From Deltaproteobacteria bacterium (GTDB lineage: Bacteria; Myxococcota; B64-G9), in contig JAFGRB010000448.1 of the NCBI GenBank assembly GCA_016935365.1, positions 1 to 37,966 on the forward strand: DNA of 37,966 bases. The letters run 5' to 3'. The position numbers and the translations under genes were made by a program. Below, one piece after another: positions 1 through 25,542 of this stretch (positions are counted from its first letter, which is position 1; each line of letters begins with the position of its first letter). A model generated the notes under the pieces. The model ran no database searches. It had not been told where the DNA came from and was given only the letters and a program-made list of their open reading frames with translations.

Positions 1-117
1 CCGTGGGATCCGTGCGAGCCGTGGGATCCGTGCGAGCCGTGGGATCCGTGCGAGCCGTGGGATCCGTGCGAGCCGTGGGATCCGTGCGAGCCGTGCGAGC
101 CGTGAGAGCAGTGAGAT
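1..117 (-). repeat. 18-bp tandem repeat encoding Gly-Ser-His units
   Basis: Five perfect copies of CCGTGGGATCCGTGCGAG fill 1-90, followed by a half unit (91-99) and two diverged 9-bp units (100-117). Read on the minus strand each 9-bp half is one Gly-Ser-His codon triplet, alternating TCC and TCG for Ser. The array therefore is the tail of the peptide gene and not an intergenic repeat. Near-perfect DNA identity suggests recent expansion by slippage or unequal crossing over. The left end lies outside the window. Confidence 0.9.
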
Positions 118-335
118 AGCTCATTGCGGTCGGGCAGCGAGGATTTCACGCCGGGGTGCGATGGCTTTCTCTGAGCAGCCGAAGCGCGACCCGGCACCGC
201 CGAAAGCGCCGCTCCAGCCACGAGCAGGAGCGTCGAGCTGGACGTCAGCACATCTCTGCGCGTGAGCTTGCGCTCTTCAGGCGTGAGGAATGCGGCCGGT
301 TCCTTCTTCGCCTCGGGATACCTGTCCCTGGACAT
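1..335 (-). CDS. His-Xaa-Ser-type repeat peptide with Tat-like leader (partial)
   Basis: Small gene running off the left window edge after 111 full codons; the stop is not seen. The ATG at 333-335 has a GGAGG (344-348) 8 nt upstream. Residues 1-23 are hydrophilic, 24-30 read LTRRDVL (twin-arginine-like), 35-47 are hydrophobic, and RASA at 50-53 could be a cleavage site. After a short spacer, from residue 74 the chain reads SHC and then SHG again and again, with 13 His before the edge. In the other register this is His-Xaa-Ser, the repeat of the Hxs peptides that are known partners of radical SAM maturases. It lies 51 nt downstream of a radical SAM/methyltransferase gene on the same strand, so a modified-peptide precursor is the leading idea. 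A simple metal-binding, His-rich Tat-exported protein is the main alternative. The reading frame is clear; the function is inferred. Confidence 0.75.
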   Translation of the reverse strand, partial: MSRDRYPEAKKEPAAFLTPEERKLTRRDVLTSSSTLLLVAGAALSAVPGRASAAQRKPSHPGVKSSLPDRNELSHCSHGSHGSHGSHGSHGSHGSHGSHGSHGSHGSHGSH

Positions 336-360
336 GGCATCATCCTCCAAGCGTGTATTA

Positions 361-390
361 ATTCTATCTTTCGCACCCTCAGCTTGTCAA
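361..390 (-). promoter_or_regulatory. Near-consensus -35/-10 promoter of the repeat-peptide gene
   Basis: On the minus strand TTGACA (390-385) is followed by an 18-nt spacer and TAGAAT (366-361), with the GGAGG and ATG of the peptide gene just downstream. The -35 overlaps the stop codon of the upstream radical SAM gene (389-387). This is the best match to a housekeeping promoter in the window and would let the peptide be expressed above its presumed maturase. Confidence 0.6.
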
Positions 391-2156
391 GCGCACCTTT
401 CATACGATTCGAAGGAGGCGATCCACATCGGGCTCGAGGTCTCCCCGGCCGCAGCCCCGCCTGTGCTCTTCAGACCGAGCTCGTTGGCCAAAACAGCGAT
501 CTCCTCGTGCGTGGAGCTGCGCCAGTGCTCGAAAGACGCTCTGCCTTCTCGACCTGCTTCCGCCACTACGCCGAAGACCTCATCGTCCGCCAGCAGCAGC
601 CGCCCGCCAGGCCGGAGCAGATCGAGCATCTTCTCCAGAGCCGCTCGGAGGCCGGGCAGATGGTTGAGGCTCCTCAAGGCCATGACGCAGTCGAAGGCCT
701 TGCTGTCCCAGCAGAGATCCTCGAAGGAGGTCTGCAACCAGCGCGCGTTCGGAGCCGAGGCGGTACCGCGCTCGGGATCGACGCCTATGTAACTGAGCTC
801 TCCGCGCTGCATGGCTGGCAGCAGGCTATCGAGGTACGGAGCGGCGCCGCAGCCCACGTCCAGGACCAGGCCGCGCAGCGCGCCGAGCTCGAGGTCCAGC
901 ATCGCCTTGGCCCGGGCGAAACCACAGGGCTCGCGGGGTGTCCAGATGCCGCTGCACATCCTGCGAAGCGAGCAGTCGGCGCAGGCCGGGACGAGCTCCA
1001 GGCTCTGCAGCCTCTCCACCAGATCGCCCTGATCGCTGTGCGCGAGGTAGACCTGGCCTTGCGCCTTGCACCGCGCCAGGGTCTGGTCCGAGAAGTCCCG
1101 GGTCCCGGCCGTGAAACGCTGGATGCCCCCTGGCATGGCGACCATCAGGCCCCGGACCGGATCCTGAGCAGGCTGCTCGCCGGCTTGGATGGGGCAGGGG
1201 TCGAAGCAGATGGCCTCGGTGGCGGAATCGGCAATAAAAATGAAGGAGTTCGATACTGTTTCTCGAGCTGGTATCAGCTCCCCATCCCCCCTTCTGTCCA
1301 GGTATACCCGAAAGACCCCCCTGCAGCGGCGCCTGAGGCTGCACTCGGGGCAGGGCTTGCCGAAGGACTTGTGCAGCTCGTCGACCGGGTACCAGCCCTG
1401 CTCGAAGGCCTCGGACATGGCGAAGAAGGAGTCCTCCCTAAGGCCGGAGTCCAGATGAGCGAGCTCGCCCAGAGCGCACAGGGGCAAGCCGTCCACAAGC
1501 AGCTCGAGGTCGGGCCAGCGATCGCTTGCATAGTCGACCGCCTCGCGAATGCGGGTAGCCGCTTCTGCGATCAGGGGCACGAGCCCCTCGAAGTCGCACA
1601 GGGCATTGCCCTCGGGCTCGACCATGGAGAGCTTGAGGCGAAGAGGGCCCCTGCGAGACAGATAGCCGATCCGCTCCACCGCGTCCAGGACCCGGCCGAG
1701 CACCGCCCGGGTGAGGACCAGGTTGACAGTCAGATCCGGCACCTTTCCGATGACTTGGACGAGACCCTTCCAGGTCTGCTCGAATGCGCCGCGCGAGCGC
1801 ACCAGCCGGTCGTGCAGCTCTGGAGAGGCCGAGCACACGGAACAGTACACGTACTCGAGTCCGCGCTCGAGAAGATCCCGCACCAGGCTGGAGTAGGCCA
1901 GCATGCGTCCATTCGTGACCAGGCCGATGCGCATGCCCGCAGCTTGGATCGCATCGGCCAGATTCATCAGGTCGGGCCGGATGGTCGGCTCTCCACCTGA
2001 CAGCACCACGCAACGGGCGCCGAGCTGCCTGGCCTCGAGTATCTTTGCCTGGAGCTGTTCGAAGCGCGCCTCGATACCGCGGTGGGGGGCTGCGTGGCAG
2101 AAGACGCAGTTGTTGTTGCAGCGGTAGCCGGTCTTGAGCAGCACTCGGGTGTCCAT
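387..2156 (-). CDS. Radical SAM protein fused to a SAM-dependent methyltransferase
   Basis: 589 residues. The radical SAM motif CNNNCVFC has C13, C17 and C20 ligating the [4Fe-4S] cluster that cleaves SAM; SGGEPT follows. A LPLC motif and CPECSLRRRCRG form the auxiliary-cluster signature shared by most radical SAM proteins of this window; a second CADCSLRRMCSG lies near residue 395. From about residue 431 a class I methyltransferase begins with VLDVGCG, followed by a YIGVDPE acidic loop. The ATG has an AGAGGG site and follows the secreted Cys-rich gene by 12 nt, so the two are co-transcribed. The repeat-peptide gene lies directly downstream, making this the best candidate for its modifying enzyme. 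Fold assignments are secure; substrate is inferred. Confidence 0.9.
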   Translation of the reverse strand: MDTRVLLKTGYRCNNNCVFCHAAPHRGIEARFEQLQAKILEARQLGARCVVLSGGEPTIRPDLMNLADAIQAAGMRIGLVTNGRMLAYSSLVRDLLERGLEYVYCSVCSASPELHDRLVRSRGAFEQTWKGLVQVIGKVPDLTVNLVLTRAVLGRVLDAVERIGYLSRRGPLRLKLSMVEPEGNALCDFEGLVPLIAEAATRIREAVDYASDRWPDLELLVDGLPLCALGELAHLDSGLREDSFFAMSEAFEQGWYPVDELHKSFGKPCPECSLRRRCRGVFRVYLDRRGDGELIPARETVSNSFIFIADSATEAICFDPCPIQAGEQPAQDPVRGLMVAMPGGIQRFTAGTRDFSDQTLARCKAQGQVYLAHSDQGDLVERLQSLELVPACADCSLRRMCSGIWTPREPCGFARAKAMLDLELGALRGLVLDVGCGAAPYLDSLLPAMQRGELSYIGVDPERGTASAPNARWLQTSFEDLCWDSKAFDCVMALRSLNHLPGLRAALEKMLDLLRPGGRLLLADDEVFGVVAEAGREGRASFEHWRSSTHEEIAVLANELGLKSTGGAAAGETSSPMWIASFESYERCA

Positions 2157-3153: not shown

Positions 3154-4329
3154 GTGGAGGAGGATATCAAGATCTGGACCCGGCGCCTGACCGGGGTGCT
3201 GGCCCGCCTGGACGATCCGCCGGCCCGGGTCGAGGCGAGGCTGGAGAATGGCGGGCTCGAGGTCTCGCTGTGGCCGGAGAGCGGAGCGGGACTGGTCCTG
3301 CACTTCGGATCGGACTCGATGCAGTACCGCGGTTCAGAGCTGGACGAGCGGGGCGCTTGTTGGATTGAGGCGATCGAGCGCTCGCTGGAACGCACGCGGA
3401 GGCTCCCGGGCTGGCGGGACTTTCTCACATGCGGATCGGTGCACACGGACCCGGTATCCTCGGGCGACTGGTGGCTGATCCGTCTGACCGAACGCTGCAA
3501 TGCAACCTGCGCGTTCTGCAGCGCGGTCGGCACGACGCCCGACCTTGCCACGAGCCGCGTGCGGATCGAGCGACGCCTGGAGCTGGGCCGCAGCCGTGGG
3601 CAACTCAAGCTGTCCATCACCGGTGGAGAGCCCACGCTGCTCAGGCGTCTGCCGGCCTGGATCGAGCGCGCCCGCGAGCTCGGCTACCGCGAGGTGGATC
3701 TCCAGACCAACGGGCTCTTGCTCGACGATCCGGGGCGGTTAGATCAGCTCTCACGCGCAGGCCTGAGCTCGGTCTTCCTGTCCCTGCACAGCCACCGTCC
3801 AGAGGTGCACGACGCGATGCTGAGCGTGGACGGCGCCTTCGATCGGGCGTTCGCCTGCGCGCGGTACACGCAGCGATCAGGCCTGATGCTCGGTATCAAC
3901 GTCGTGCTGACCCGGTATAACAAAGACGATCTCCACGGCCTGATCTCACTCATCGCCGCTCGGCTCGACCCGGCCCGCTGCCACGTCAACCTCAGCTACT
4001 GCTCCCCCCAGGGCCGGGCCCTGGAGCACCTCGACCTGCTGGTGCCACTTTTCGATCTGGCCCCCCGTCTGGAGGCGGCCCTAGACGAGGGAGCGGGGCT
4101 CGGGCTGGACATGCACGTGCCAGGCATCTGCGGCGTGCCCATGTGCAGCCTGCCCGCACACCTGAAGTACTTTGACGAGTTCCACGCCAAGTCCCCGGCC
4201 CATCAGCCGGAACGAATTTACCCGGAGCTGTGCAGCGGCTGTGGGCTCCGGGCTCGCTGCTCGGGCTTCTGGCGGGTCTATCTGGAGCGCTTCGGCCCGG
4301 CCGGGCTGGGCGCCCAGCGGCTGGTGTGA
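3154..4329 (+). CDS. Radical SAM protein with auxiliary-cluster domain
   Basis: 391 residues from a GTG start. Residues 1 to about 105 form an N-terminal domain I do not recognise. The radical SAM motif CNATCAFC (C115, C119, C122) is followed by TGGEPT and a LQTNG strand typical of the TIM-barrel core. Near the C-terminus GVPMC and then CSGCGLRARCSGFW followed by VYLERFG form the auxiliary iron-sulfur (twitch/SPASM-like) signature shared with other radical SAM proteins here. It is first in a two-gene plus-strand unit with the double radical SAM gene 3 nt downstream, and diverges from the Cys-rich/radical SAM/peptide unit. Probable peptide or small-molecule modification; the substrate cannot be read from sequence. 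Confidence 0.88.
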   Translation: MEEDIKIWTRRLTGVLARLDDPPARVEARLENGGLEVSLWPESGAGLVLHFGSDSMQYRGSELDERGACWIEAIERSLERTRRLPGWRDFLTCGSVHTDPVSSGDWWLIRLTERCNATCAFCSAVGTTPDLATSRVRIERRLELGRSRGQLKLSITGGEPTLLRRLPAWIERARELGYREVDLQTNGLLLDDPGRLDQLSRAGLSSVFLSLHSHRPEVHDAMLSVDGAFDRAFACARYTQRSGLMLGINVVLTRYNKDDLHGLISLIAARLDPARCHVNLSYCSPQGRALEHLDLLVPLFDLAPRLEAALDEGAGLGLDMHVPGICGVPMCSLPAHLKYFDEFHAKSPAHQPERIYPELCSGCGLRARCSGFWRVYLERFGPAGLGAQRLV

Positions 4330-4332: not shown

Positions 4333-6441
4333 GTGCAGCGACTCCACTACATCCGCCTGAGCACCGGCTGTAACCAGAACTGCCTGTTCTGCAACGTGCG
4401 GGGCAGCCAGCCGGTCTTGGCCGAGCCCAGACCGGAGATCCTCTCCGAGCTCAGCGCCGATCTGGACGCCGTGGTGCTCACCGGCGGCGAGCCGCTCATG
4501 GCGCGCAGCCTGGCCGGTTTTTTGCGCACCGCTTCCGAGCTCGGCCTGGCGGTCGAGATCCAGACCAACGGGACGCTGCTGGCCGCGGGCAGCTCACTGG
4601 ATCTCCTGGATCGCTTTCCGCCGCGCTATCTGGTGATCTCGCTCAACGCGCACGAGCCCGCGCTATACCAAAGGCTGTGCCGGACCGACTATTTCGAGCA
4701 TGCCGTCGAGGGGATACGCCGTGCAGTGGCCCACGGGCACAGGGTCCGGCTGGAGCACCTGCTCTGCGGGCTCAACTACGAGCGGGCAGGGGACTTCGCC
4801 CGGCTGGTGATCGAGCGCCTTCAGGGTGTGGAGTCGGTGGGCTTTCTCAGTTTGATCCCCGCTGGCCAGGCACTGGAAAGAGAAGAGCTCTTCGTGCGAC
4901 ACAGCCAGGTGATGCGCTCGCTGGAACCGGCCGTGGACACGCTCATCCAGGCCGGCCAGGACGTGTCCTTGGCGGGTCCGTACGGCTTTCCACTCTGTCT
5001 GGTCCCCGAGCGGCATCGAGCGCTCTCGGAGTGTATGCAGCACCTCCATCCCAATCCCTGCGGGGTGGAGATCGGAGACGAGCGCTGCTGGGCCGAGGAG
5101 TGCCGGGATTGCCACTTCCGCCCTATATGCGCCGGCCTGTGGAAGGGCTACGCGAGCCGGTTCGGACTCGGGGAGCTCGCGCCTCGATCCAGCACGATCC
5201 GAGCGCTGCCGCGGATCGACTGCGCCATCGATCCCCAGCGCATCGGGCCGTATCGCGAAGCCATGCAGATGCGCGAGTCTCTCGAGACAAGCCGGGGGCA
5301 GTACTTCGTCTGGGCGCTGACCGCGGAGTGCAACACGCACTGCCGCTTCTGCGATCAGCGCCAGTACTTCCGCCCGGGCGACCATGGCGCGCTGAGTCGT
5401 GAGCGCTGCCTGGCGCTGGCCGACGATCTCGCTCGCTGGCGCTTCGACGATGTGCTGCTATGCGGAGGAGAGCCCACGCTGCATCCCCACCTGGACGAGA
5501 TCCTGGATGCGCTGCACGCCCGGGGCTTGCGCACTTCATTGAACACAAACGGGATCTTGCTCGATCCGGGGCGCATCCAGCGCCTGGCTGAGAGCGGTCT
5601 CGAAAACCTGATCGTGTCCCTGGACGCCGATAGGGCCGCGGTGCACGATGACCTGCGCCGAAGGCCGGGTCTCTTCGATCACCTGATCGAGACGCTGGAG
5701 GCAGTCCGCGATGAGCCCTGGCGGCCCTCGATCCGCCTGCACGCGATCGTCAGCGCCGCGAACTTCAGCCATCTACTCGGGCTCGTGGAGCTCGCCGCCC
5801 AGCTCGGACTCGAGAGCGTGGACATGACCCTCTTCATGGACATCATCAAGCAGGAGCCGGCCTTCAAGCTCTCCCGGGCTCAGATCCTTCGATTTTACAA
5901 ACAGATCCTGCCCGAGATGGCCCGTAGTGCGAGCGGGCTTCACATCAAGCTGCACCTCAACCCGACGCCGCTTCGCTGGGCGAGCCGCCTTTCGCGGATG
6001 CGGCCCGAAGACCTCCAGGAGCTCGAGAACCTAAAGCTCGAAGACAGGCTGCTCGATGCCTGGGCGGAGTGCCGCTACAACGTCGAGCTCAACCAGTCCT
6101 ATGTCTGCCTCTCCTCCTGGTTCGACAAGTACATGGATCCCTACGGCGAGCTCTACCCCTGCTCTCAGTCATCCATCTTCCAGTCGGAGTACAGGATGGG
6201 AAACATCCAGGCGAAGCCCTTCGACGAGCTGATGAACTCAAAGGCCATTCGAGAGTTCCGGCGCCGGGTGCCCGATCACGGAGCCTGCCAGCGCTGCTTT
6301 GCCGCGTCGGTGGCGCACGCCGAGCTCATCAAGTTCCTGCCGAGCCACGAGGACGTGATCGATGCACGAGCCTACTTCGAGGACAACCTGAACGAGTGGA
6401 GCTTCGCAGCTCTGGGTCAGAGACCCAGCGAGGCGAGGTAG
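4333..6441 (+). CDS. Tandem double radical SAM protein
   Basis: 702 residues, GTG start 3 nt after the previous stop. Module 1 has CNQNCLFC (C13, C17, C20), TGGEPL, FPLC and CRDCHFRPICAG followed by WKGYASRFG, the signature shared across this window. Module 2 starts near residue 325 with CNTHCRFC (C333, C337, C340) and CGGEPT, and ends with a longer SPASM-like region (CLSSW, YPCSQ, CQRCF). Two complete cores in one chain could perform two steps on one substrate, or one may serve binding. The 3' end overlaps the convergent propeller lipoprotein gene by 25 bp. Fold certain, role unknown. Confidence 0.9.
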   Translation: MQRLHYIRLSTGCNQNCLFCNVRGSQPVLAEPRPEILSELSADLDAVVLTGGEPLMARSLAGFLRTASELGLAVEIQTNGTLLAAGSSLDLLDRFPPRYLVISLNAHEPALYQRLCRTDYFEHAVEGIRRAVAHGHRVRLEHLLCGLNYERAGDFARLVIERLQGVESVGFLSLIPAGQALEREELFVRHSQVMRSLEPAVDTLIQAGQDVSLAGPYGFPLCLVPERHRALSECMQHLHPNPCGVEIGDERCWAEECRDCHFRPICAGLWKGYASRFGLGELAPRSSTIRALPRIDCAIDPQRIGPYREAMQMRESLETSRGQYFVWALTAECNTHCRFCDQRQYFRPGDHGALSRERCLALADDLARWRFDDVLLCGGEPTLHPHLDEILDALHARGLRTSLNTNGILLDPGRIQRLAESGLENLIVSLDADRAAVHDDLRRRPGLFDHLIETLEAVRDEPWRPSIRLHAIVSAANFSHLLGLVELAAQLGLESVDMTLFMDIIKQEPAFKLSRAQILRFYKQILPEMARSASGLHIKLHLNPTPLRWASRLSRMRPEDLQELENLKLEDRLLDAWAECRYNVELNQSYVCLSSWFDKYMDPYGELYPCSQSSIFQSEYRMGNIQAKPFDELMNSKAIREFRRRVPDHGACQRCFAASVAHAELIKFLPSHEDVIDARAYFEDNLNEWSFAALGQRPSEAR

Positions 6442-7934: not shown

Positions 7935-7940
7935 ATCATA
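7935..7940 (-). promoter_or_regulatory. -10-like box TATGAT, leaderless arrangement
   Basis: TATGAT on the minus strand overlaps the stop of the upstream radical SAM gene and ends 6 nt before the GTG at 7928. The same geometry recurs at other transcription-unit starts in this window and favours GTG 7928 over TTG 7934. Confidence 0.35.
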
Positions 7941-9705
7941 GCCCGCGAGCGCCCGTCTTGACCACCAGGAACCGATGTCTGCGGCTTGCCTCTTGTAGCC
8001 AGCCCTGATCGGGCTCGCGCCCTGCGAGCTGCGCGAGCATCTCTCGCGCGTGCGGGTTCAGCGGGATGAGCTCCTGGCTGCGCCCATCGAAACCTGCCTG
8101 CGCGTCGAGCAGTCTGGCGCCGCCAAGAACCTGGGCGGCCAGGAAGGCCAGTTTCTCGTCTCCGTCTCCCAGACCGGGCGGATCGAAAAACGCGCCGCAG
8201 TCGATCCGGAACAGGCCGGCCGAGACGCGCTCGAGCAGCTCGCGCTTGAGCTCGAGGGCACGCGCGTGGTCGATCCCGCTCTCGACGCGGTACGGTCGAG
8301 ATCCGCTGCCGGCCGTCTGGATGGGCTCGACGCCGTACTCCTCGGGATGGGCGTAGACCCGGCTGCCCTGCTCCAGGACGAAGGGGTTGATCCGGTTGTA
8401 GGCGATCGAGGCGTGGTTGCGCTCCCAGAAGCCGAGCGTGGCTTGCCAGTCGTCCTCGGTCTCGCCGGGAAAGCCGACCATGAAGAAGCACAGGTTCGTG
8501 ATCCCGCAGGCCGCGGCCGTGCGCAGCACCCGCTCTGCCGTGGGCGGGGAGGTGCCCTTGCGCATGCGCCTGAGCAACCTGGCCGAGCCCGACTCGATCC
8601 CCCAGAAGACGACCTTGAAACCGGCTCGGGCCATCAGCTCGAGGGTCGCCTCGTCGAAGCCCCGCTCGGGTCGCGCTCCGGCAAAGAAGGAAAGACCCGT
8701 CGTTCCGCCTGACTCGGCGAGCAGGGCCCGGCAGAACGCGCGCGCCTGGCGAGGCGCCAGGGCCTCGTCGGAAAGGGAAAAGGAGCAGCAGTCGAAGCGA
8801 TCGGCGAGGGTGGCTAGCTGCCGGGCGATCGATCGGGCCGGCAGGTGACGGCAGCCGAGCCCGGCCACATCCCGCCGGCAGAAAGCGCATCGCCGCCAGT
8901 AGCATCCGTGGCTGAGCTGCACGGGCAGAACGCGCTGCGGGAAGTAGAATCGATCGAGGTCGAGCAGGTCGAAGGCCGGGAGGAGGTCCTCGACCTCCGG
9001 GTAGCGCTGCTCCTCCAGTACGACGGCGCGCGGTGGGCTGCCCGCCTCGAGCAGCTCGGATAACGGCCTCTCGCCCGGCCCGACCACCAGGGCCCTGGCA
9101 CCCAGCTCATCCAGGATCCGCTCGCGCTCGGCTTGCGACATGCAAGCCGTGGTGCTGCCGCCGACCACCACGGGCCAGCGCCGGGCAAGGCGTCGGATCA
9201 GGGCCTCGACGAGCGGATCTCCGACCCGGCCCATGGACACGCCGATCCAGTCGGCCGCGGCGCGCTCGGCCTGCAGCTCGGCCGAATCGAGAAAGGGGTG
9301 ATCCGCACATGAGGCATCGCGGCTCGCGGTGGTGAGCAGGTCTGCCAGCAGGCGGGACAGCCCGGCTGCATGAGGTCCGTAGATGAAGCGCTCGAGCGCC
9401 GGCCCAAAGGCGAGATGGGCCGTGTCGGCGATCTTCTTGCAGGCCCAGCTTTGCTCGCGGGCCTGCATGCCGAGAAGGGTAGGGGTGGCCGCATCAGCGC
9501 GCTCCAGAAGCCAGCGCTGGCCTTCTGGAGACAGGGCCAGGCTGTCCAGGAGGGTGGAGAAAAAGGGCAGCAGCGAGACCGCATGGCCCCGGCTCCGGCA
9601 CCAGGCTGCCAGTCGGGCCGTGCCCAGGTTGCACCACGAGGGGGGCAAGCTCGCATCCTGGCCGAGGTGCAGGTTGGGCTCGGTGAAAAGCAGAAGCCGT
9701 GCCAT
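7936..9705 (-). CDS. B12-type radical SAM protein with unusual CX4CX2C motif
   Basis: 589 residues from ATG 9705. The N-terminal ~230 residues resemble a cobalamin-binding Rossmann domain of class B radical SAM enzymes (MARLLLFTEPNL start, VVVGGSTT, GPGE), although no DxHxxG motif is visible, so B12 binding is unproven. The cluster motif is GCYWRRCAFC with C268, C273 and C276, that is CX4CX2C instead of CX3CX2C. The core continues with FFAGARPE, VFWGIESGS and MVGFPGETEDD, typical of the MiaB/BchE-like group. The C-terminus (PLNPHAREMLAQLAG) resembles a PqqD-type peptide-recognition helix, a weak hint of a peptide substrate. It diverges from the gene at 9753 with a 47-bp spacer. Confidence 0.85.
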   Translation of the reverse strand: MARLLLFTEPNLHLGQDASLPPSWCNLGTARLAAWCRSRGHAVSLLPFFSTLLDSLALSPEGQRWLLERADAATPTLLGMQAREQSWACKKIADTAHLAFGPALERFIYGPHAAGLSRLLADLLTTASRDASCADHPFLDSAELQAERAAADWIGVSMGRVGDPLVEALIRRLARRWPVVVGGSTTACMSQAERERILDELGARALVVGPGERPLSELLEAGSPPRAVVLEEQRYPEVEDLLPAFDLLDLDRFYFPQRVLPVQLSHGCYWRRCAFCRRDVAGLGCRHLPARSIARQLATLADRFDCCSFSLSDEALAPRQARAFCRALLAESGGTTGLSFFAGARPERGFDEATLELMARAGFKVVFWGIESGSARLLRRMRKGTSPPTAERVLRTAAACGITNLCFFMVGFPGETEDDWQATLGFWERNHASIAYNRINPFVLEQGSRVYAHPEEYGVEPIQTAGSGSRPYRVESGIDHARALELKRELLERVSAGLFRIDCGAFFDPPGLGDGDEKLAFLAAQVLGGARLLDAQAGFDGRSQELIPLNPHAREMLAQLAGREPDQGWLQEASRRHRFLVVKTGARGL

Positions 9706-9713
9706 GGCTTGCC

Positions 9714-9722
9714 AGTCTAGCA
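9714..9722 (-). promoter_or_regulatory. Extended -10 box TGC-TAGACT, leaderless arrangement
   Basis: On the minus strand TGCTAGACT is followed by 8 nt and the ATG at 9705. TGCTAGACTGGC also occurs before the NifH-like gene (24694-24705). It lies in the 47-bp spacer facing the opposing box at 9741. Confidence 0.45.
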
Positions 9723-9740
9723 CGCCTGGGCGCTGGGCAG

Positions 9741-15359: not shown

Positions 15360-18300
15360 TCAGTTCCTCGTTCGCCGTAGCGCCGGGAAGAGCAGCATCG
15401 GCAGCAGGAGCAGCCAGATGAAAGAGGCCGGGGCCGAACCGCAGCCGCAGCCGCCCTGGACATCGCCCGATCGATCACCGTCCCGATCACCTGCTTCAGT
15501 GCCGGCATCGAGTCCGGCGTCGGCGCCCGGATCGGATCCCGCGTCGGATCCGGCGTCCATACCGGCATCCATGCCGCCGTCCTGCGTGTGCTCGGGGTTG
15601 AGCACCACATAATCCCCGTCGGCCACCCAGTCGACCGGGCCGCTGTTCAGGCTGACATCGGTCACGCCCGGTGCGAGGATCCGGACGGTGGCATCTCGCG
15701 GCTCTCCGACCAGCAGCAGCCGATCGGATTCGCGATCCGCCTTGAGCGCTGAAAGCCGCGCCGTGCTATCCACGAGCGGCCGCTCGGCGTCGGAGAACGA
15801 GCTCGTCTCGGCCACTGCCAGCACGAGCGGTTGCCCGGTGAGCTCTCGCCGCGCATAGCAGAGCAGCCCGTCGCAAGACCGTCCAGAGGCGCTACGGCTC
15901 TGTCCGGCCGCACCCTCGCCCACCAGAAGAATGGTATCCTCCCAGCCGGCCGCCTGGACACGGAACGCAAAGGCCTGGTCGTCCCGGGCTGCATCCACAC
16001 CGAGCGACTCGAACTGCGTCACCTGCCGCTCGGCGCCGTGGGGCTCCAGCATGGATACAAAGGTCGTCGCGCTCGCCTGGCGGCGGGCCATGGCAAAGGG
16101 TACCGGCACCCGCAGGTCCGGGCCGAGCCCCTCGCCAACCACCAGGGTCGTGCCCTCACCGGGTGCCATCTGCCAGCTGAGCGCCCGGTAGGGCCTGTCG
16201 AAGTCGGCCACCAGGCTCTCTCCAGCCGCTGGATAGCGAAGGACGATCGAGTCGACGAAGAGATCACCCGCCACCGGACCGCCGGCCTGGGAGTGGATGG
16301 CGATCACCACCGCGCTCAGCGGGGTGTCCACTTCGCCGTCGTCGTTGCCCAGGTAGTGGCTCCAGCTGGCGATGTCACCGGCGCTCAAGCTGCGCCAGCC
16401 GGTCCAGTCGACCGGCCCGATGGTGGTCACGAAGCGCTCGTCGGTCGCGTCCATCACCCGGAGGCGAAGCTCGTGGCCGCTTCCATCTCCGTAGACGTCC
16501 ATGCGCAGCTCGGCCGGAACCTCGCCGATCGGAGGCGGCGATTCTGTCGAGTAGAGGATATAACCCTGGGCAGCGCTGAAGTCGTAGTGCAGCCGGCCCG
16601 ACCCGCTGCCCGCTGCCGACTGTGCGCGCGTCTGAGTGAAGCTGGCCTCGATGCCCGGCTCGCTGGGCCAGACACTCCCGTAATCCAGTTCGTCACCGCC
16701 TTCCAGGTCGAAGGTGACCGAAAACCCGCTGTCGGCCGCGGCTGCCCGGCAGGCCTGGAGATGCTGGTAGCCATTCTCATCGCCGAAGGCGCTGTAGTCC
16801 TCGAGTGCGAGATCCGCGCTCGCGCCTCCGGCGTTGTGGTAGACGAGATCGATCTGGTGGCTCGCCCCATCGGTCGAGTCGACCTGGAAGACGTCCAGGG
16901 CATAGTCGGGAAGGAGCGCCAGCGTGCGCACCAGCCTCGCGCTGTCAGGGTAGACCGGCCCGGCGTCCGCGCGGGCGAAGCCGACGTCCGGCAGCAGGAC
17001 GCTGCGGATCAGCACGCCGGTGGCCTCGGCCTGGCTGTGCTCGTCGATCACCACCGTGTTGTGGGCCACGGTCTGCTTGTCCCAGGTCTCGTGCGTCGGC
17101 GCGGCGTAGGACTGGGTGCCCGGATCGAGCCCCATGACCTCGCCTCGGGCGAAGGACACGAAGCCGAGCTTGTCGAAGTGGCCGTGCCAGCCACCGTGAG
17201 GGCCATAGTCGAGCGCCAGGTAGTGGGCGCGCTCCGATCCGCCGGCACGGAGCACCGCATAACCCGCGTCGGCAAAGATCAGGCTACCCAGCGCCCGAGC
17301 GCTGATCCCGGGAAGCTGCTCCAACCCCCAGAAGAGCGCCTCCCGCCCTCGGGCTTCATCTACGAGCGGCACAACCAGCTCGTCCTCCAGGTAGCGGGCA
17401 TAGGCCACCTCGTAGAGATCCCGCTCGGCGGACAAGTTCTGGCGCCCGCTGTCATTGAAGGGCGGCAGGCTCAGATCGGGCATCGAGAAGCGCACCGCGG
17501 AGGCGAACATGTCGTGCAGGCCGGGCTCGGCGAAGAGGTCGAGGCCGGCCATCTCGGCCATCAGCGCGGTCTGCACGAGCGGGCTGAGGGCGAAGAAGTG
17601 ATAGCCCCAGGAGCCCTCGTACCAGAATCCGTCCGCGCTCACGCTGTGCGCCATCTGGAAGAGAAAGCCGCTCTGGCCGTACAGGGCCTCCGCGGCTAGA
17701 CGAGCGTCCTCGAGGCCGAAGCCAACCGCGGCCACGGCAGCGTTGTGCCAGCTCTGCCAGTTGCTCTCGCCTGCGTCGTTGCGCCGAATGACGGCCACCG
17801 CCGCCCGCAGCAGATCGTGCTCGATGTGCGCCCGATCCGCGTCGCCCAGAGCCGGGCTATCCGCGATCAAGTCATAGGCCCAGGCGAGCGGGATCAGCCA
17901 GGACGACTCGTCCAGGGTCTGGGCGCTCGCCCGGGCGCCGGAGCTGCCCTGGCCGCCCTGGACGTCGTGGAGCGGATAGCCGAGGTAGGCATCGGCGTAG
18001 GCCAGCAGGATGGCCGCGGCCTCGTCCGCATACGCGATCTCGCCGGTGAGCCGATAGGCCAGTCCGAGATCCTGGGCCGCGCGGGCGGCGTCCGAGTGAC
18101 GCCAGGCGTAGATCACCTGGTCGTAGGGCCAGCCGGTGAGGTTGCGGCCGCAGACCGGGCAGACGTTGCGGCCGGGGCCCTCGTAGACGAGCGAGACCCC
18201 GCAGTCGGGACAGACGTACCACAGCGTCCACTGGCCTCCCTCGGGCGGCAGCTCCCAGCTCGAGAGCCCGTAGCGGGCGTTGTGATCCTCGGGCCAGCCG

Positions 18301-19256
18301 TCGGCCCGGGCGCGGATCCCGGCCAGCTCCGCCTCGGCCCATGAGTGGCTCGTGGCCCATGCTTGCACGCGGTTGAAGTCGTCCGCGTCGAGCAGCAGCC
18401 GGGGGGATGTCCGTTGCGGCAGTGGAACGCAAGCCGAGAGCTCGAGGCTGTCGTGCTCGAGGCCGTCGACCAGGACCGCGAAGCGGGCCGTGTCGGACTC
18501 CAGGTAGTGCTCGGGCTGGATCTGGGCCGCCGGGATCAGCAGGCCGACCGTCACCTCGTCTGCCTGGCCCGGGCCGAGCACGAGCTGCGCTGGCTCGACA
18601 GATGCCTGCCAGACAGAGCCCGCCTCCAGCTCGACCGCCAGGTCGGCCGTCAGACCCACACCCGCTTTTTCCGAGAGGGCCACCCGGTAGGTGTAGAGAT
18701 AATCGCCCGCACTGTAGCCGTAGTCTACCTGCAGGCCGTCCACCAGCGCTGTGCAGAGGCGCATGTCATCGAGGTGCAGCAGCGTGTCGGGAAACGCCTC
18801 GTGGCTCCAGCCGCTTGCTGACAGCTGCACGTAGTTCAGCTCGTGCCAGCCCGCAGGCTGTCGGGAGACGATGAAATCGGAGAGCGGGATCCACAAGTGC
18901 CGCCAGCCGGTCCATTCCACGCGAAAGGGGTAGCGGTAGTAGTCCCAGCCGTCGGAGCCTTCGTTCTCCGAGTCGAAGATCAGCTCGATCTGGGCGCCGT
19001 TGGCAACAGCCGAGTGGATCCAGACGCTGAGGCTGTCCTCGGCGCTGGCATCCAGGGGCGTCGAGAAGCGCTTGGAGATGCTCGTCTGGCCTGGATGATC
19101 GTCCCAGCGACCCGAAGCGCTGCCCTCGACCGCCAGGCCTGCATCCCGGTCCAGGCCCGACCAGTCGGAGACGTCCTCGAAGTCGTCGATCCCGATCTCG
19201 GCCCGGGCGCTCCAGGCCAGTAGCAGGCAAGCAAACACGATCTGTGCTCTGTGCAT
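15360..19256 (-). CDS. Heparinase II/III-like polysaccharide lyase with zinc ribbon and MYXO-CTERM-like tail
   Basis: 1298 residues. Signal peptide 1-19; residues 20 to about 170 form a carbohydrate-binding-like beta domain; from about 285 an alpha/alpha-toroid lyase domain starts. Inside it CPDCG and CPVCG (C349, C352, C366, C369) make a zinc ribbon. The heparinase II/III beta-sandwich follows with HGHFDKLGF, DPGTQSYAAPTHETW and AHNTVVID, which hold the catalytic His/Tyr region. A second binding-like domain (SEPGIEASF, DWTGWRSL) comes next. The C-terminus has a DAG-rich linker, GGCGCG, a hydrophobic segment and RRTRN, a MYXO-CTERM-like surface sorting tag. Likely degrades an acidic polysaccharide at the cell surface. 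Confidence 0.88.
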   Translation of the reverse strand: MHRAQIVFACLLLAWSARAEIGIDDFEDVSDWSGLDRDAGLAVEGSASGRWDDHPGQTSISKRFSTPLDASAEDSLSVWIHSAVANGAQIELIFDSENEGSDGWDYYRYPFRVEWTGWRHLWIPLSDFIVSRQPAGWHELNYVQLSASGWSHEAFPDTLLHLDDMRLCTALVDGLQVDYGYSAGDYLYTYRVALSEKAGVGLTADLAVELEAGSVWQASVEPAQLVLGPGQADEVTVGLLIPAAQIQPEHYLESDTARFAVLVDGLEHDSLELSACVPLPQRTSPRLLLDADDFNRVQAWATSHSWAEAELAGIRARADGWPEDHNARYGLSSWELPPEGGQWTLWYVCPDCGVSLVYEGPGRNVCPVCGRNLTGWPYDQVIYAWRHSDAARAAQDLGLAYRLTGEIAYADEAAAILLAYADAYLGYPLHDVQGGQGSSGARASAQTLDESSWLIPLAWAYDLIADSPALGDADRAHIEHDLLRAAVAVIRRNDAGESNWQSWHNAAVAAVGFGLEDARLAAEALYGQSGFLFQMAHSVSADGFWYEGSWGYHFFALSPLVQTALMAEMAGLDLFAEPGLHDMFASAVRFSMPDLSLPPFNDSGRQNLSAERDLYEVAYARYLEDELVVPLVDEARGREALFWGLEQLPGISARALGSLIFADAGYAVLRAGGSERAHYLALDYGPHGGWHGHFDKLGFVSFARGEVMGLDPGTQSYAAPTHETWDKQTVAHNTVVIDEHSQAEATGVLIRSVLLPDVGFARADAGPVYPDSARLVRTLALLPDYALDVFQVDSTDGASHQIDLVYHNAGGASADLALEDYSAFGDENGYQHLQACRAAAADSGFSVTFDLEGGDELDYGSVWPSEPGIEASFTQTRAQSAAGSGSGRLHYDFSAAQGYILYSTESPPPIGEVPAELRMDVYGDGSGHELRLRVMDATDERFVTTIGPVDWTGWRSLSAGDIASWSHYLGNDDGEVDTPLSAVVIAIHSQAGGPVAGDLFVDSIVLRYPAAGESLVADFDRPYRALSWQMAPGEGTTLVVGEGLGPDLRVPVPFAMARRQASATTFVSMLEPHGAERQVTQFESLGVDAARDDQAFAFRVQAAGWEDTILLVGEGAAGQSRSASGRSCDGLLCYARRELTGQPLVLAVAETSSFSDAERPLVDSTARLSALKADRESDRLLLVGEPRDATVRILAPGVTDVSLNSGPVDWVADGDYVVLNPEHTQDGGMDAGMDAGSDAGSDPGADAGLDAGTEAGDRDGDRSGDVQGGCGCGSAPASFIWLLLLPMLLFPALRRTRN

Positions 19257-19262
19257 GGAACG

Positions 19263-19268
19263 AGTCTA
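19263..19268 (-). promoter_or_regulatory. -10-like box TAGACT, leaderless arrangement
   Basis: TAGACT on the minus strand is followed by 6 nt and the ATG at 19256 of the heparinase-like gene, with no Shine-Dalgarno sequence. The same hexamer occurs at 9714-9719 and 24697-24702. Confidence 0.45.
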
Positions 19269-19314
19269 TGCCAATCGGTGCGATGGGTACAGCGGCTTGG
19301 AGTTGACAGGCGCG

Positions 19315-21375
19315 ATGGGCTGCGACGACCATGGGAAGGTGAGCCCTCTCGACCCCCACGATGCGCGACGGGTGCTCCTGGCCCTGGCCGGGCGGATCGA
19401 CTCCGCGCTCGATACACGCGTGCGCTGTCTGCGGGCGGTGCCTCGGATCGATGGCAGCCTGTATTTCGATCTCGAGATTCGGGCTGGGGGTACGGAACGA
19501 ATCGATCAGCTCGCGAGCGCTGAGCTCCGCTCTCTTGGTCCTCGTGGAGAGGCGCTCCGCGAGCGCATCTCGGCTGCGCTGAGCGCGTGCCTCGCGCAAC
19601 CTGAATTCGCCTTGCTGTCTTTCTGCAACCGCGATCGCAGCCGGATCGCCTTCGACGACACTGTGGTCGACGTCTTGCTGGCCGGACGCTTCGCGCCCGG
19701 GCGGACGCGCTGGTTCGACTACGTCTTCGAGGGCGCCTTCCAGGAGATCCCGGAGCGCTTCGATCTCCGCTTCCTGGGGCCGAGCGGTGAGATCGTGTTC
19801 TGCGTGCATAGCGCGGGAAGCGCAGTGCGCGAGGGCGGCCAGCGTGTGATGGCGAACCATGTCCTGATGCTCGAGATCGCAGCCGATCCGCGGCCGGCCG
19901 GTCTCCGGAGCTCGCTGGCCCACCAAGTCGAGCGTTTCCTGGGCTTCACCCTCAGCCGGGCGGTCCACCCGGGGCTGCGGCTCGAGGCAGCCGCGCAGCG
20001 AAGCAGCGCCCGGGTGAACCGAGAGGGCGAAGCGAGCGCTGAGCCCACGATGCCCGACGATGGCGAGCCGATCTCGACCACCCGCTGGGGAAATCCCCAT
20101 CAGTGGTTCCAGTTCTTCTCCGACTTCGAGCAGGAGCGCTCCAACCTCTGCGCGGTCGAGATCAGCGATCCGGTCGCCTGCGTGATCCACGGCGAGGCCG
20201 AGTGCGGCTGCATCGAACCCTTCACCTTCACGCCCACCGTGGAGTGGGTCCAGCCGCCCTGGCCGCGCCGCCGCGGGCTGAGCGCGCCCGGCTCTTCGAC
20301 CCACCTGACGGCTCTGGGCGAGACCGAGGCGGTCCTCGGAGGACACGAGAAGCTGGAGCGCGCCCTCGAGGAAGCGCGCTCCAATCGCCAGGCCCGGCTC
20401 GTGCTGCTCAACGACACCTGCTTACCCAAGATCATCGGCGACGACGTGGACTCAGCGCTGGCGAGACACCGGCGACAGAGCCCGGTGCCCATCGTGCGCA
20501 TGAACACCGACCTGTCCAGCCCCGACTCGATCTTCGGCGACCTGTTGCGACAGGTGCTCGAGCAGGGCAGGCACATCGAGCGCAGCAACGGGCTCGGGCT
20601 GGTCGGCTTTCCTGCCGGGAGGGGTCGGGAGGAGCTCATCGGGTTGCTCACTCGGCTGGGCGTCGAGCGCTGCGCCTGCCTGCTGCCCGAGTTCGGCCAG
20701 AGCTGCTCGAAGCCTTTTCTGGGTTGCACGGCCGGTGTGGTCTACCCCTTCGGCCTGTATGTCGACCTGGCCGAGCACTTGCTGGCCTCTGGCGAAGGTC
20801 CAGCGCTGTGCGTCCTGCCCGCACCTTACGGCATTCGCCGCAGCCTGGAGTGGCTGGACGCGATCCGCGAGCTGCTCGGGCTGCCGGTCGAGCCTTTGGG
20901 TTGGCTCGGGCCTGTGCTCGAGCGCTGGGCACAGCTCTCTGCGCAGGCGGCCGAGCACGCCCTGGCCGTGGTGGTGGACGCGAGCCAGCGCGAACGTCTG
21001 TACGAGCCTCGAAGGCTCTACGGCTTCGAGCTGCTGCCCCTGCTCGAAGAGATGGGCTTTGCACTGCGCGTGCTGGTTCGCGGCCCAGAGGATTCCTGTG
21101 TCTTGTCTCGCTTGGCCGAGCCCGATCGGCACGAGTGCTTCTTCTTCCAGTCGACCGAGGAGCTGGACGGGCTGATGTCCAGAGGCGACTTCGATGCGGT
21201 CTACTCGGATCTGTCCTTCGACAGCCGGTTGACCCGAAAAGGCAAGCCTCCGTTTCATCTTGGATTTTTAGAGCTCGGTCCGGCCGGTGGCCTGCGCGGA
21301 CTCGAGAGGCTGCTCTCGCTCTGCCGCTGGCCTTTCTTTCGGAGATACAGCCGCCATCTCGGGAGGGCCACTTGA
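19315..21375 (+). CDS. Nitrogenase component-1-like subunit (NifD-like role) with N-terminal extension
   Basis: 686 residues from ATG 19315; the start is uncertain (an ATG at 19255 overlaps the divergent gene's start codon; GTG 19339 is possible). Residues 1 to about 260 are a domain I do not recognise. From about 265 on the chain follows the oxidoreductase/nitrogenase component 1 pattern: C279, the GP-C-like turn ISDPVACVIHG (C289, with C297 and C299 nearby), THLTALGETEAVLGGHEKL, NDTCLPKIIGDD (C369, matching the Cys of NifD ECPxxLIGDD), then VPIVRMNTDL. These cysteines could bind a P-cluster-like or [4Fe-4S] cluster. The stop overlaps the start of the partner subunit by 4 bp, implying a complex. 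Substrate unknown; not a true nitrogenase. Confidence 0.85.
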   Translation: MGCDDHGKVSPLDPHDARRVLLALAGRIDSALDTRVRCLRAVPRIDGSLYFDLEIRAGGTERIDQLASAELRSLGPRGEALRERISAALSACLAQPEFALLSFCNRDRSRIAFDDTVVDVLLAGRFAPGRTRWFDYVFEGAFQEIPERFDLRFLGPSGEIVFCVHSAGSAVREGGQRVMANHVLMLEIAADPRPAGLRSSLAHQVERFLGFTLSRAVHPGLRLEAAAQRSSARVNREGEASAEPTMPDDGEPISTTRWGNPHQWFQFFSDFEQERSNLCAVEISDPVACVIHGEAECGCIEPFTFTPTVEWVQPPWPRRRGLSAPGSSTHLTALGETEAVLGGHEKLERALEEARSNRQARLVLLNDTCLPKIIGDDVDSALARHRRQSPVPIVRMNTDLSSPDSIFGDLLRQVLEQGRHIERSNGLGLVGFPAGRGREELIGLLTRLGVERCACLLPEFGQSCSKPFLGCTAGVVYPFGLYVDLAEHLLASGEGPALCVLPAPYGIRRSLEWLDAIRELLGLPVEPLGWLGPVLERWAQLSAQAAEHALAVVVDASQRERLYEPRRLYGFELLPLLEEMGFALRVLVRGPEDSCVLSRLAEPDRHECFFFQSTEELDGLMSRGDFDAVYSDLSFDSRLTRKGKPPFHLGFLELGPAGGLRGLERLLSLCRWPFFRRYSRHLGRAT

Positions 21376-22658
21376 ACACCTACCTGACCGGGGTGCAGCT
21401 GGCGATCAACGCCATCGCCGATGCCTACCTCGTCGTGGACGGGCCGAACTGCGCCATTTTCCGCTGCAGCCAGATCCAGGGCAACCACGACTGGCACTCG
21501 ACCTTGCTGTCCGCAGACGGCCAGCACCGGGTGGCCGACACGGACGCCACGCCGGACCGCATCGCGGCGGGCGACGACCGGCTCCTGCGGGAGCGATTGA
21601 AGCGCATCGCCGATCTGCCTGCCTGTGGCGTACTGCTGCTGGTGGCCATGTCGCCGGTGGCCGTGACCGGGCGCCAGCACGACAGGATCCTCGCCGATCT
21701 GGGCCTGGGAGATCGCGTGATCCATATCCCTTCGGGCTCGCTCGATGGGGATCACCTCGATGGGTATGCGCGGACCCTGGCCTCGCTGGCCGCCGGGCTG
21801 CCGCTCGCAGCTTCGGGCCCCGAGCCTGCCAAGGTGGCCATGGTCGGACATCTCCATGACCGCAACGAGGCTGATCGCCACGCGGACGCAGCCCAGATCC
21901 GGCACCTGCTCGAAGGCTGCGGGCTCGAGCTGATCAGTTGCTGGCTCGACGGCTCGGGCGCGGCTTCGCTCTGTCGCATAAGCGAGGCGGGACTGATCGT
22001 CTCGCTGCCCTATGCCCGCGAGGCCGCGCGGATCCTGGCCGGGCGGACCGGTGCCGAGCTCGTCGAGTGCGGGCTGCCCATCGGACTGGAGGGCACGAGC
22101 CGCTTCATAAGAGAGATCGCGAAATGCACGGGTCGCGAGGCGCAGGCCGAGGCCTTCATCTCATCCGAGCTCGACCGCATCGTGCCCAGGCTCGAGTGGG
22201 TGCTGCTGCACCGGCTGCAGGGCAAGCGACTGGCCGTGATCGCGGACTGCCACCTGGCCTGTGCCCTGGCGGAGGCCTGCCAGGAGCTCGGCTGCCGGGT
22301 GCTGCTGCGCTGCGACTGGTCGTCTCCGTCCCACATCGAGCCCCGCGAGCACACGGGTCCAGGAACGCGAGTCGAGGGGTTCGATCCGGGCCTCGGCGGG
22401 GTCCTGGCCGGCCTGGCGTCCGAAGGCCTGGACCTGCTGCTCACGAACGCCCACGCCCTGATCACCGCCGGCCTGCCCGGGGGTGTGGCCGAGGTCGAGA
22501 TCGGCTTTCCGAGCTATCACCATCACGCGCTGTTCGAGCGGCCCTTGCTGGGCTACGATGGCGCGGCCGGTCTCGCCGAGCGGCTGATCAACGCCCTGGC
22601 CGCAGAGGCGGTCCGGCAGGGCCAGCGAGGCGCTGGGGCCCTAGACACGAGCGACTAA
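21372..22658 (+). CDS. Nitrogenase component-1-like subunit (NifK-like role)
   Basis: 428 residues from TTG 21372, whose TTGA overlaps the preceding stop; GGGAGGG is 4 nt upstream. The N-terminus GVQLAINAIADAYLVVDGPN with C27 and C32 matches the GP-C loop that holds a cluster ligand in component-1 proteins. The segment corresponding to the TCxxxIGDD loop is VAMSPVAVTG and has no cysteine, so cluster ligation would be asymmetric. Later parts (AKVAMVGHLHDRNEAD; KRLAVIADCHLACALAEACQELG; SEGLDLLLTNAH; EIGFPSYHHHALF) match the three Rossmann-like domains of the family. No C-terminal metallocofactor His/Cys set is recognised. It is the obligate partner of the upstream subunit and converges with the radical SAM gene at 22655. 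Confidence 0.85.
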   Translation: MNTYLTGVQLAINAIADAYLVVDGPNCAIFRCSQIQGNHDWHSTLLSADGQHRVADTDATPDRIAAGDDRLLRERLKRIADLPACGVLLLVAMSPVAVTGRQHDRILADLGLGDRVIHIPSGSLDGDHLDGYARTLASLAAGLPLAASGPEPAKVAMVGHLHDRNEADRHADAAQIRHLLEGCGLELISCWLDGSGAASLCRISEAGLIVSLPYAREAARILAGRTGAELVECGLPIGLEGTSRFIREIAKCTGREAQAEAFISSELDRIVPRLEWVLLHRLQGKRLAVIADCHLACALAEACQELGCRVLLRCDWSSPSHIEPREHTGPGTRVEGFDPGLGGVLAGLASEGLDLLLTNAHALITAGLPGGVAEVEIGFPSYHHHALFERPLLGYDGAAGLAERLINALAAEAVRQGQRGAGALDTSD

Positions 22659-23632
22659 GAGCCGAGGGCGGCCCGCACGCGAGCTGGCCCTTGCTCGATC
22701 TCCGATTCGCCGTAGATGTCGAGGTAGGCTCTCCAGACGCCCTCGCAGCGTTCGACGAGCGGGCAAGCGGCACAGCCTTCGAGCAGGCGCTTGAGCTTGC
22801 TCGTGCGCTGCTCCTTCCAGTCGAAGCGCTCCATGGGGAGGTCGGAGTTGTAGAGGCTGACCCGGGTGCTGAGGTCGATCTCCTCGCCAGCGTATCGAGC
22901 GCACAGGGCAGGGCTTGCAAGCAGCTCCCAGGGCCAGAAGCACCAGGGCACGTCGGCGAAGCTCAGATCCATCTTCCACTCGGCCTCATTGCGCGCCGCG
23001 AGCTCGCGCATGGGGACTGTCAGGTCCCCGAGCGCGGGCACCCACTCTCGGCTGCCCACGGCCTCGTGCTCGGGCCGGATGAAGTTGAGCCGGATGTCGC
23101 CAAGTCCCCGGCGGTTGAAAAAGGTGACGAACTCCAAAAGCTTGCCCAGGATCTTCGCGTGCAGAACGGAGTTGAACGAAAGCCCGTGCTCGAGCCGGCC
23201 CGCGTCTCGGGCCCCGACCAGCTGATCGAGTGCCCGCAGCTTCTCGTCGAAGGAACCCGGCCTGCGCGTGATGGCGTCCTCCAGCGATGCTCGATGGGCG
23301 TGGATCGAGAAGGCCACTCGGTTCAGGCCTGACTCCAACAGGCGCTCGAGGCGGTCGGGATCGGCAAGCCGTGATCCGTTCGTGCAGATGGCCACCCGTC
23401 GGTAGCCCAGCTGCCGGGCGTGCGCGATGGCCCGCTCGAGCTCGGGATAGAGCGTGGGCTCGCCTCCCAGGAAGCAGACCGACTCCCATCCAGAAGCGCG
23501 CTGCGTCTCGAGCTCCCGCTCCACATCCCGGATGCCCATCCAGCCCTTGGGCCGCAGGCGGACATCCCCGTTGGAGCAGAACAGGCAGCGGTTGTTGCAG
23601 GCCCGGCCGAGGTTGATGTCGAGATTTCTCAC
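22655..23632 (-). CDS. Radical SAM protein, nitrogenase-like cluster (paralogue 1)
   Basis: 325 residues from GTG 23632; GTGA overlaps the stop of the upstream radical SAM gene by 3 nt. CNNRCLFC (C12, C16, C19) is the SAM-cleaving cluster site, GGEPT and ICTNG follow. DVPWCFWPWELLA and CAACPLVERCEGVW then YLDIYG form the shared auxiliary signature. It aligns along its length with the next gene upstream (identical INLG start, NFIRP versus NLIRP, PWELLA versus PWEVLA), so the pair arose by tandem duplication. It converges with the nitrogenase-like subunit genes with a 4-bp overlap. Likely acts on the same substrate pathway as the reductase. Confidence 0.9.
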   Translation of the reverse strand: MRNLDINLGRACNNRCLFCSNGDVRLRPKGWMGIRDVERELETQRASGWESVCFLGGEPTLYPELERAIAHARQLGYRRVAICTNGSRLADPDRLERLLESGLNRVAFSIHAHRASLEDAITRRPGSFDEKLRALDQLVGARDAGRLEHGLSFNSVLHAKILGKLLEFVTFFNRRGLGDIRLNFIRPEHEAVGSREWVPALGDLTVPMRELAARNEAEWKMDLSFADVPWCFWPWELLASPALCARYAGEEIDLSTRVSLYNSDLPMERFDWKEQRTSKLKRLLEGCAACPLVERCEGVWRAYLDIYGESEIEQGPARVRAALGS

Positions 23633-24594
23633 GCCCGCCCCCCGCTCAGGCAGGCCTCCACGAAGGCCGGGGCCGTGTCGAACTCTCGCTCGCCGAAGAG
23701 CGCGAGGTAGCCGTTCCAGATGCCCTCGCAGGAGCCGTTCAGCCGACAGTCTCGGCAGGCGGCCGCCTTGGACTTCAAGGTCGAGATCCGCTCGGTTCTC
23801 CAGGGCGCGCGCTGGGGGCCCTGCTCGTAAAACTGTGTGATCTCGCGCTCGTAGGCGTGACCTCGATAGCGTCGCTCGAGCTCTCCGTCGGCCAGGACCT
23901 CCCAGGGAAAGCAGCACGGCGGCACGTCCAGGAATGCGAAGTTTGCATGCCATTCGAGCTCGTTGCAAGCCGCAGCCCGGCGAATGGCCCGCCTGAGCTC
24001 CTCGACTCTCGGCACGTAGGCCGCGAGTCCGGAACCCATCTCCGGCACGGGCCGGATCAAATTGAATCCCTGCACCGGTACGCCTCTGCGATGCATGCCT
24101 TCGATGGCCGCCTCGAGGCCCGAAAGCAGCTTGCGGTGCAGGACCCACTTCACCTTCAGGCCGCCGGGGAGCCGGTCCTGGACGCGTAGCAGGTTGTCGA
24201 GCGCGGCCTGCTTGCGCCCGAAGGCGCCAGCCTGTCCGGCGATCCGATCCTCCATGGCCGCATCGGAGCCGTTGAAGGAGATGCCCACCCGGGTCAGGCC
24301 TGCATCGATCAGGGCTGCGAGCCGATCCGCATCCTCCAGCAGGAGGCCGTTCGTGCTGATGCCCACCGCGCAGCCTAGATTCCGGCAACGAGCCACCAGG
24401 GATTCGAAGTCGGGAAAGGCGGTCGGCTCGCCTCCGGAGAACGAGATCTCCTCGATACCCCGGGAAGCTGCGCGCTCGATCTCGGCCACGACTTCATCTC
24501 GCGGGGCAAAGCGGCGCTCGGGCTCGGGCATCGAGGGGCAGTAGAGGCAGCGGCAGTTGCAGGCCAGACCCAGGTTGATCTCCACGCTGTCCAC
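23629..24594 (-). CDS. Radical SAM protein, nitrogenase-like cluster (paralogue 2)
   Basis: 321 residues if GTG 24594 is the start. This gives a first nine residues (MDSVEINLG) that align with the neighbour's MRNLDINLG without gaps; an open frame extends to a TTG at 24690 but would fill the divergent promoter region, and GTG 24606 is a further option. CNCRCLYC (C12, C16, C19), SGGEPT and ISTNG mark the core; DVPPCCF and CRDCRLNGSCEGIW with YLALFG the auxiliary signature. An extra Cys sits inside the main motif (C14). It is first in a two-gene minus unit and diverges from the NifH-like gene. Confidence 0.88.
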   Translation of the reverse strand: MDSVEINLGLACNCRCLYCPSMPEPERRFAPRDEVVAEIERAASRGIEEISFSGGEPTAFPDFESLVARCRNLGCAVGISTNGLLLEDADRLAALIDAGLTRVGISFNGSDAAMEDRIAGQAGAFGRKQAALDNLLRVQDRLPGGLKVKWVLHRKLLSGLEAAIEGMHRRGVPVQGFNLIRPVPEMGSGLAAYVPRVEELRRAIRRAAACNELEWHANFAFLDVPPCCFPWEVLADGELERRYRGHAYEREITQFYEQGPQRAPWRTERISTLKSKAAACRDCRLNGSCEGIWNGYLALFGEREFDTAPAFVEACLSGGRA

Positions 24595-24633
24595 CTGCCC
24601 ATCCACGCACGAACACCCACAGCTGTCAACTCG

Positions 24634-24648
24634 ACGGGAGATTCCCGT
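24634..24648. promoter_or_regulatory. Palindrome in the divergent spacer of radical SAM and NifH-like genes
   Basis: ACGGGA-GAT-TCCCGT is a perfect 6-3-6 inverted repeat in the 115-bp spacer between the divergent starts 24594 and 24710. A GGGG/CCCC pair around a T-tract (24672-24688) lies next to it. It could be an operator acting on both units. If the radical SAM gene really started at 24690 it would be coding. Confidence 0.3.
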
Positions 24649-24702: not shown

Positions 24703-24709
24703 GGCCCGA

Positions 24710-25540: not shown

Positions 25541-25542
25541 GG

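Follow-up and report, generated by a model that had tools for sequence, protein, structure and literature searches.

The DNA analysed here, called the window (37,966 nucleotides, the entire contig C127 of a 7.7-Mb assembly in 481 contigs), begins with a tandem repeat that encodes the end of a small peptide of exported appearance. The peptide is of the HxsA4 class, which is known but uncharacterised and on which radical SAM enzymes would be expected to act. We interpret the gene as part of a variant Hxs peptide pathway that makes use, in this branch, of a nitrogenase-like reductase; the role of the reductase is one that we infer, and we put the explanation as a whole at roughly 70%.

Hxs peptide systems were reportedly named by Haft and Basu, and the peptides are said to have carried that name for over a decade. 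We found no open paper describing the function or product of Hxs peptides, nothing published on HxsB chemistry and, in the literature searched (including for nitrogenase-like enzymes together with RiPPs), no earlier report linking a nitrogenase-like enzyme to such peptides.

A complete hxsA4-type precursor gene

An 18-bp array occupies the left edge of the window (6.5 copies, TRF score 199), and a minus-strand ATG at 335 opens a frame that runs through it up to the edge, reading ...LSHCSHGSHG... The features at this edge are:

1-335, minus strand: hxsA4-type precursor, 5' part, 111 residues (NF038313 66 bits, cut-off 55), completed on contig C38, bases 84-138, as ...SHGSHGSW-stop
1-117, minus strand: Ser-His-Gly core repeat, first unit Ser-His-Cys (TRF; synonymous-biased variation)
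344-348, minus strand: ribosome-binding site GGAGG, 8 nt before the ATG

An earlier note on this DNA had taken the repeat for the coding tail of a small gene with its own ribosome site, encoding a His-Xaa-Ser-type peptide beside radical SAM genes, and each of these points holds. The leftward extension that it called for is supplied by C38 of the same genome, which starts inside the same repeat, shares an exact 83-bp overlap with C127 and carries the frame onward to ...SHGSHGSHGSW-stop; genome-wide, the repeat occurs at high identity only at these two contig ends. The hxsA4 gene is complete and intact across the two contigs, with no frameshift or stop interrupting its frame at the join. The joined precursor has 129 residues and about 18 Ser-His-Gly units, a number that belongs to the largest-overlap join and is uncertain because the assembly broke within the repeat. 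Compared with the HxsA family models, as the note had proposed, both the window part and the joined protein (106 bits) exceed the curated cut-off of the HxsA4 model from NCBIfam.

The DNA repeats every 18 bp and the protein every 3 residues because synonymous codons alternate. Compared with their consensus, the units of this gene carry 18 synonymous codons and 1 non-synonymous codon; across 15 related genes, 200 synonymous codons and 17 non-synonymous ones depart from the consensus of the gene concerned, and each of the 17 is either a Gly-to-Ala change or the Cys of the first unit. This bias argues that the peptide itself is selected—that is, the codon pattern places the SHG repeat under protein-level selection—and it rules out a chance microsatellite or an artefact.

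The (Ser-His-Gly)n core is entered by [LV]xHCSHG and, in every precursor found, closed by SHGSW; the Cys at its start is invariant within the signal-bearing precursor group. The window precursor has a Tat-like leader, LTRRDVLTSSSTLLLVAGAALSAVPGRASA, which scores 13.6 bits against the NCBIfam Tat model TIGR01409 (cut-off 16.7). In closer relatives, the leader of the precursor combines a TRR or TRG motif with a hydrophobic stretch: TRR occurs in seven precursors (the window and six other loci), while in three others the second Arg is replaced by Gly. Five precursors of other Myxococcota (L098, L099, L102, L105, L112) have the same core without a signal sequence, so the twin-arginine-like leader described in the earlier note is a plausible Tat signal for the window's branch only. 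These signal-less relatives, together with a canonical HxsA of the same phylum that has a signal-like leader, mean that export alone makes no new class.

Neighbouring Hxs and radical SAM genes

The earlier note saw no obvious HxsB/HxsC pair. HxsB seemed to be missing because of the contig edge; it lies just beyond, on C38, 30 bp past the precursor stop (TIGR03978 494 bits, cut-off 370), with HxsD adjoining it at C38:2013-2276 (TIGR03976 58.2 bits, cut-off 50). The other half of the statement stands: the best scores among the proteins scanned are 118 bits for HxsC (TIGR03977, cut-off 267.9) and 169 bits for HxsC4 (NF038332, cut-off 500), no protein of the genome exceeds either cut-off, and a canonical HxsC or HxsC4 is rejected accordingly. 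The same models find a canonical HxsC beside HxsB in G047 of the same phylum (390 bits, cut-off 268). In the window genome, the place of HxsC/HxsC4 is taken by a radical SAM-methyltransferase fusion—the next gene upstream, as the note had it—and an HxsC4-like enzyme (rS331), listed here with the other radical SAM genes:

387-2156, minus strand: radical SAM-methyltransferase fusion, with an N half that spans the HxsC model from end to end, a class I methyltransferase as its C half and two additional invariant Cys triads; also kept next to the SHG peptide in other genera
3154-4329, plus strand: HxsC-like radical SAM protein, 391 aa (TIGR03977 91 bits, below cut-off)
4333-6441, plus strand: double radical SAM protein, 702 aa, SPASM in the second half
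7936-9723, minus strand: B12-type radical SAM protein (TIGR03975 77 bits, below cut-off)
22655-23640, minus strand: HxsC4-like radical SAM protein, 5' limit approximate (NF038332 123 bits, below cut-off)
23629-24690, minus strand: HxsC4-like radical SAM protein (NF038332 83 bits, below cut-off)
25468-26463, plus strand: rS331, the genome's best HxsC4-like radical SAM protein (NF038332 169 bits, cut-off 500)
26487-27419, plus strand: rS310, radical SAM protein, conserved partner of rS331

The radical SAM domain of the fusion covers the whole HxsC model at 90 bits; its AlphaFold model is of low confidence (pLDDT 66). Six versions of the protein have in common the CxxxCxxC motif, another two triads of Cys and the methyltransferase motif. 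The fusion is conserved in more than 15 Myxococcota genomes, with relatives spread widely through the phylum, among them Polyangium and Nannocystis exedens DSM 71; a cultured Polyangium genome holds the SHG peptide, HxsB and the fusion together and lacks the reductase. It flanks the SHG peptide in G001, G003, G006, G007, G008 and G020; six relatives from two families have hxsB, hxsA4 and the fusion side by side, and in a third family (G013, G026) a double radical SAM protein replaces the fusion beside the peptide genes. HxsB or the fusion adjoins the precursor at every precursor-bearing locus inspected.

The orientation of hxsA4 varies. In the window genome the gene is flipped in place: hxsB and hxsA4 stand tail to tail (window 1-387 and L020:1-168), with the fusion upstream of hxsA4 on its own strand. 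In G001, G003, G006 and G007, hxsB precedes hxsA4 on a shared strand, and the pair meets the fusion tail to tail. Read by eye, the flanks of hxsA4 (52 and 30 bp) hold no obvious inverted repeat of the kind that a candidate invertible switch would have.

Like other HxsA4 systems, this one has a precursor, HxsB and HxsD above their cut-offs and a Ser-His-Gly core; unlike them, it has the fusion in place of an HxsC or HxsC4 that reaches its cut-off, and linked nitrogenase-like genes. The canonical HxsABC system of G047 shares HxsB, a His-Xaa-Ser core and a signal-like leader, and differs in its HxsC and in its HRSHSSHRSHSS core.

Several further genes lie in these neighbourhoods. Within the radical SAM island, window 15360-19256 encodes a large heparinase/alginate-lyase-like secreted protein of 1298 aa. 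Upstream of hxsD is a 1213-residue lipoprotein-like protein with HYDIN/ASH Ig-like domains (L020:2405-6046; kept in G001 and G008), and the same locus carries a further HxsC4-like radical SAM protein (L020:6066-7685; kept in G001, G003 and other relatives) and a run of NAD biosynthesis genes, namely NAD synthase, nicotinate phosphoribosyltransferase and an adenylyltransferase/NAD kinase fusion (L020:7710-12547).

Linkage to a divergent nitrogenase-like gene set

The window also holds a complete divergent nitrogenase-like set (19255-25540), whose NifE-like and NifK-like genes are the only component-1 genes of the genome; the earlier reading made no connection between it and the peptide:

19255-21375, plus strand: nitrogenase component-1-like subunit (NifE/D-like) with a 270-residue N-terminal extension (PF00148 56 bits; fold match)
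21363-22658, plus strand: nitrogenase component-1-like subunit, NifK-like (PF00148 139 bits, full length)
24710-25540, plus strand: NifH-like ATP-dependent reductase, P-loop and both cluster Cys kept (PF00142 251 bits; alignment)

All three exceed the gathering scores of their Pfam families, and the NifH-like protein lies below every named NifH, BchL, BchX and CfbC cut-off in NCBIfam. A true N2-fixing nitrogenase is ruled out by the NifH/NifD/NifK equivalog cut-offs: the NifH-like protein reaches 245 of 394 bits, and the NifE-like subunit falls far below. The AlphaFold model of the NifE-like protein, of low confidence (pLDDT 59), matches the folds of NifEN, NifDK and Mar. Two invariant Cys are kept in the NifE-like and one in the NifK-like subunit, which may indicate one Fe-S relay, as in DPOR. 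The set resembles Group IV (Mar, Isr, Nfa, Cfb) and Group V (DPOR/COR) enzymes in its NifH-like protein with both cluster Cys, its two component-1-fold subunits and its adjoining radical SAM gene—Group IV enzymes can come with a dedicated radical SAM partner (PMC11423573). It differs from them in a NifH-like protein that scores below all named NCBIfam cut-offs, in the extension of the NifE-like subunit, in the single invariant Cys of the NifK-like subunit and in its linkage to a peptide pathway.

A second, different component-1-like pair, which may be a scaffold pair like NifEN, is found in G020 (L047:12024-14619), G001 (L180:16189-20000), G008 (L189:507-3457), G006 (L191:1361-4185) and G007 (L190:4658-6016, where a single subunit was seen); it is absent from the window genome.

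Across 58 genomes scanned for all three families, PF00148 occurs in all ten genomes with HxsB of this type (G000, G001, G003, G005-G008, G013, G020, G026) and in 4 of the 48 others (Fisher p = 2e-8, and p = 0.001 outside the window's family alone, both ignoring relatedness). Two of these four have the scores of true nitrogenases, a third belongs to the same family and is 70% complete, and the fourth is intermediate in score; the canonical-HxsB genomes G015, G032 and G047 have no component-1 genes. The linkage of the nitrogenase-like set falls on a single contig in six of the ten genomes. In G008 the set stands between hxsB and hxsA4, in the order HxsD-HxsB-NifH-NifE-NifK-HxsA4-fusion-rS331-rS310, and NifE-NifK-NifH-rS331-rS310 recurs in G001 and in G005, which gave no peptide hit. 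Orthologues of rS331 are found next to NifH in some genomes and next to HxsB in others (G091, G189, G209), and G091 and G189 also hold the same nitrogenase-like lineage.

No SHG peptide was found beside HxsB in G091 and G189, and no His-rich or SHG small ORF beside HxsB in G091, G189 and G202. At L223:7856-10289 and L224:8681-11095, an rS331-type radical SAM gene lies immediately beside HxsB and no HxS peptide is recognisable; these loci may use a different type of precursor.

The peptide pathway and the nitrogenase-like enzyme may nevertheless be independent and merely share one radical-SAM-rich island, the radical SAM genes by NifH serving only the metal cofactor of the reductase, as is thought for MarB, NfaB and IsrB. 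We regard this as a real possibility, although not as the favoured one. Operons for Group IV nitrogenase-like enzymes usually include a dedicated radical SAM gene (PMC11423573), the two gene sets are 19 kb apart in the window and on separate contigs in G013 and G026, and at least 11 genomes reached through the fusion have HxsB and no component-1 gene. Against independence stand the contiguous order in G008 and G020, co-presence across five families with co-absence in G004, and the shared partner rS331, which adjoins either NifH or HxsB. The genomes that have the fusion and HxsB without a component-1 gene therefore make the reductase a feature of this branch, not a need of every such system.

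A proposed pathway and its meaning

In the variant Hxs pathway that we favour, hxsA4 would encode the precursor of a ribosomally made, modified peptide, with a signal-like leader followed by the (Ser-His-Gly)n core. HxsB, probably with HxsD, would install a radical-SAM modification on each Ser-His-Gly unit, and the HxsC-like fusion would add a second change and a methyl group, after which the modified product would be exported. Unit-by-unit modification of a repeat precursor is the working model, a point shared with TvgB and other repeat-peptide radical SAM maturases (PMC9062424); the enzyme family differs, and the TvgB core motif is TVGG. In this branch, the divergent two-component reductase (NifH-like protein and two component-1 subunits) and companion HxsC4-like radical SAM proteins would join the pathway, with the reductase using ATP to reduce either the peptide or a cofactor connected with it. 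We infer the chemistry, the order of the steps, the export route and any direct action of the reductase. In its most specific form—the reductase acting directly in maturation by reducing the radical-SAM-modified Ser-His-Gly repeats—the proposal is tentative and somewhat unlikely.

The SHG repeat could instead be a metal-binding carrier and not a free peptide product: once modified, it would hold a metal or cofactor that the nitrogenase-like enzyme needs, or export it from the cell. The regular spacing of His, the invariant Cys at the core start in the signal-bearing group, a Tat-like signal of the kind typical for cofactor-loaded cargo and the link to a metalloenzyme all fit this idea. We consider it distinctly improbable, as the same core occurs without a signal sequence and without the reductase, and the few invariant Cys of the component-1 subunits favour a simple Fe-S cluster over a complex cofactor. 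An ordinary collagen-like or low-complexity secreted structural protein with coincidental radical SAM neighbours is scarcely credible: the Pfam Collagen match is weak (24.7 bits, below the cut-off of 27.2, on which a collagen-like adhesin was rejected), whereas the HxsA4 score is well over its cut-off and HxsB or the fusion is a constant neighbour.

Under the variant-pathway reading, a branch that combines a methyltransferase-fused HxsC-like enzyme with a linked nitrogenase-like reductase gives a concrete handle on the low-potential chemistry of Hxs peptides, and the association offers a possible function for a nitrogenase-like lineage without an assigned role. The cultured Polyangium makes the peptide side directly testable. 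Direct action of the reductase, if true, would make it a tailoring enzyme of a new kind and would extend the nitrogenase superfamily to a new class of substrate.
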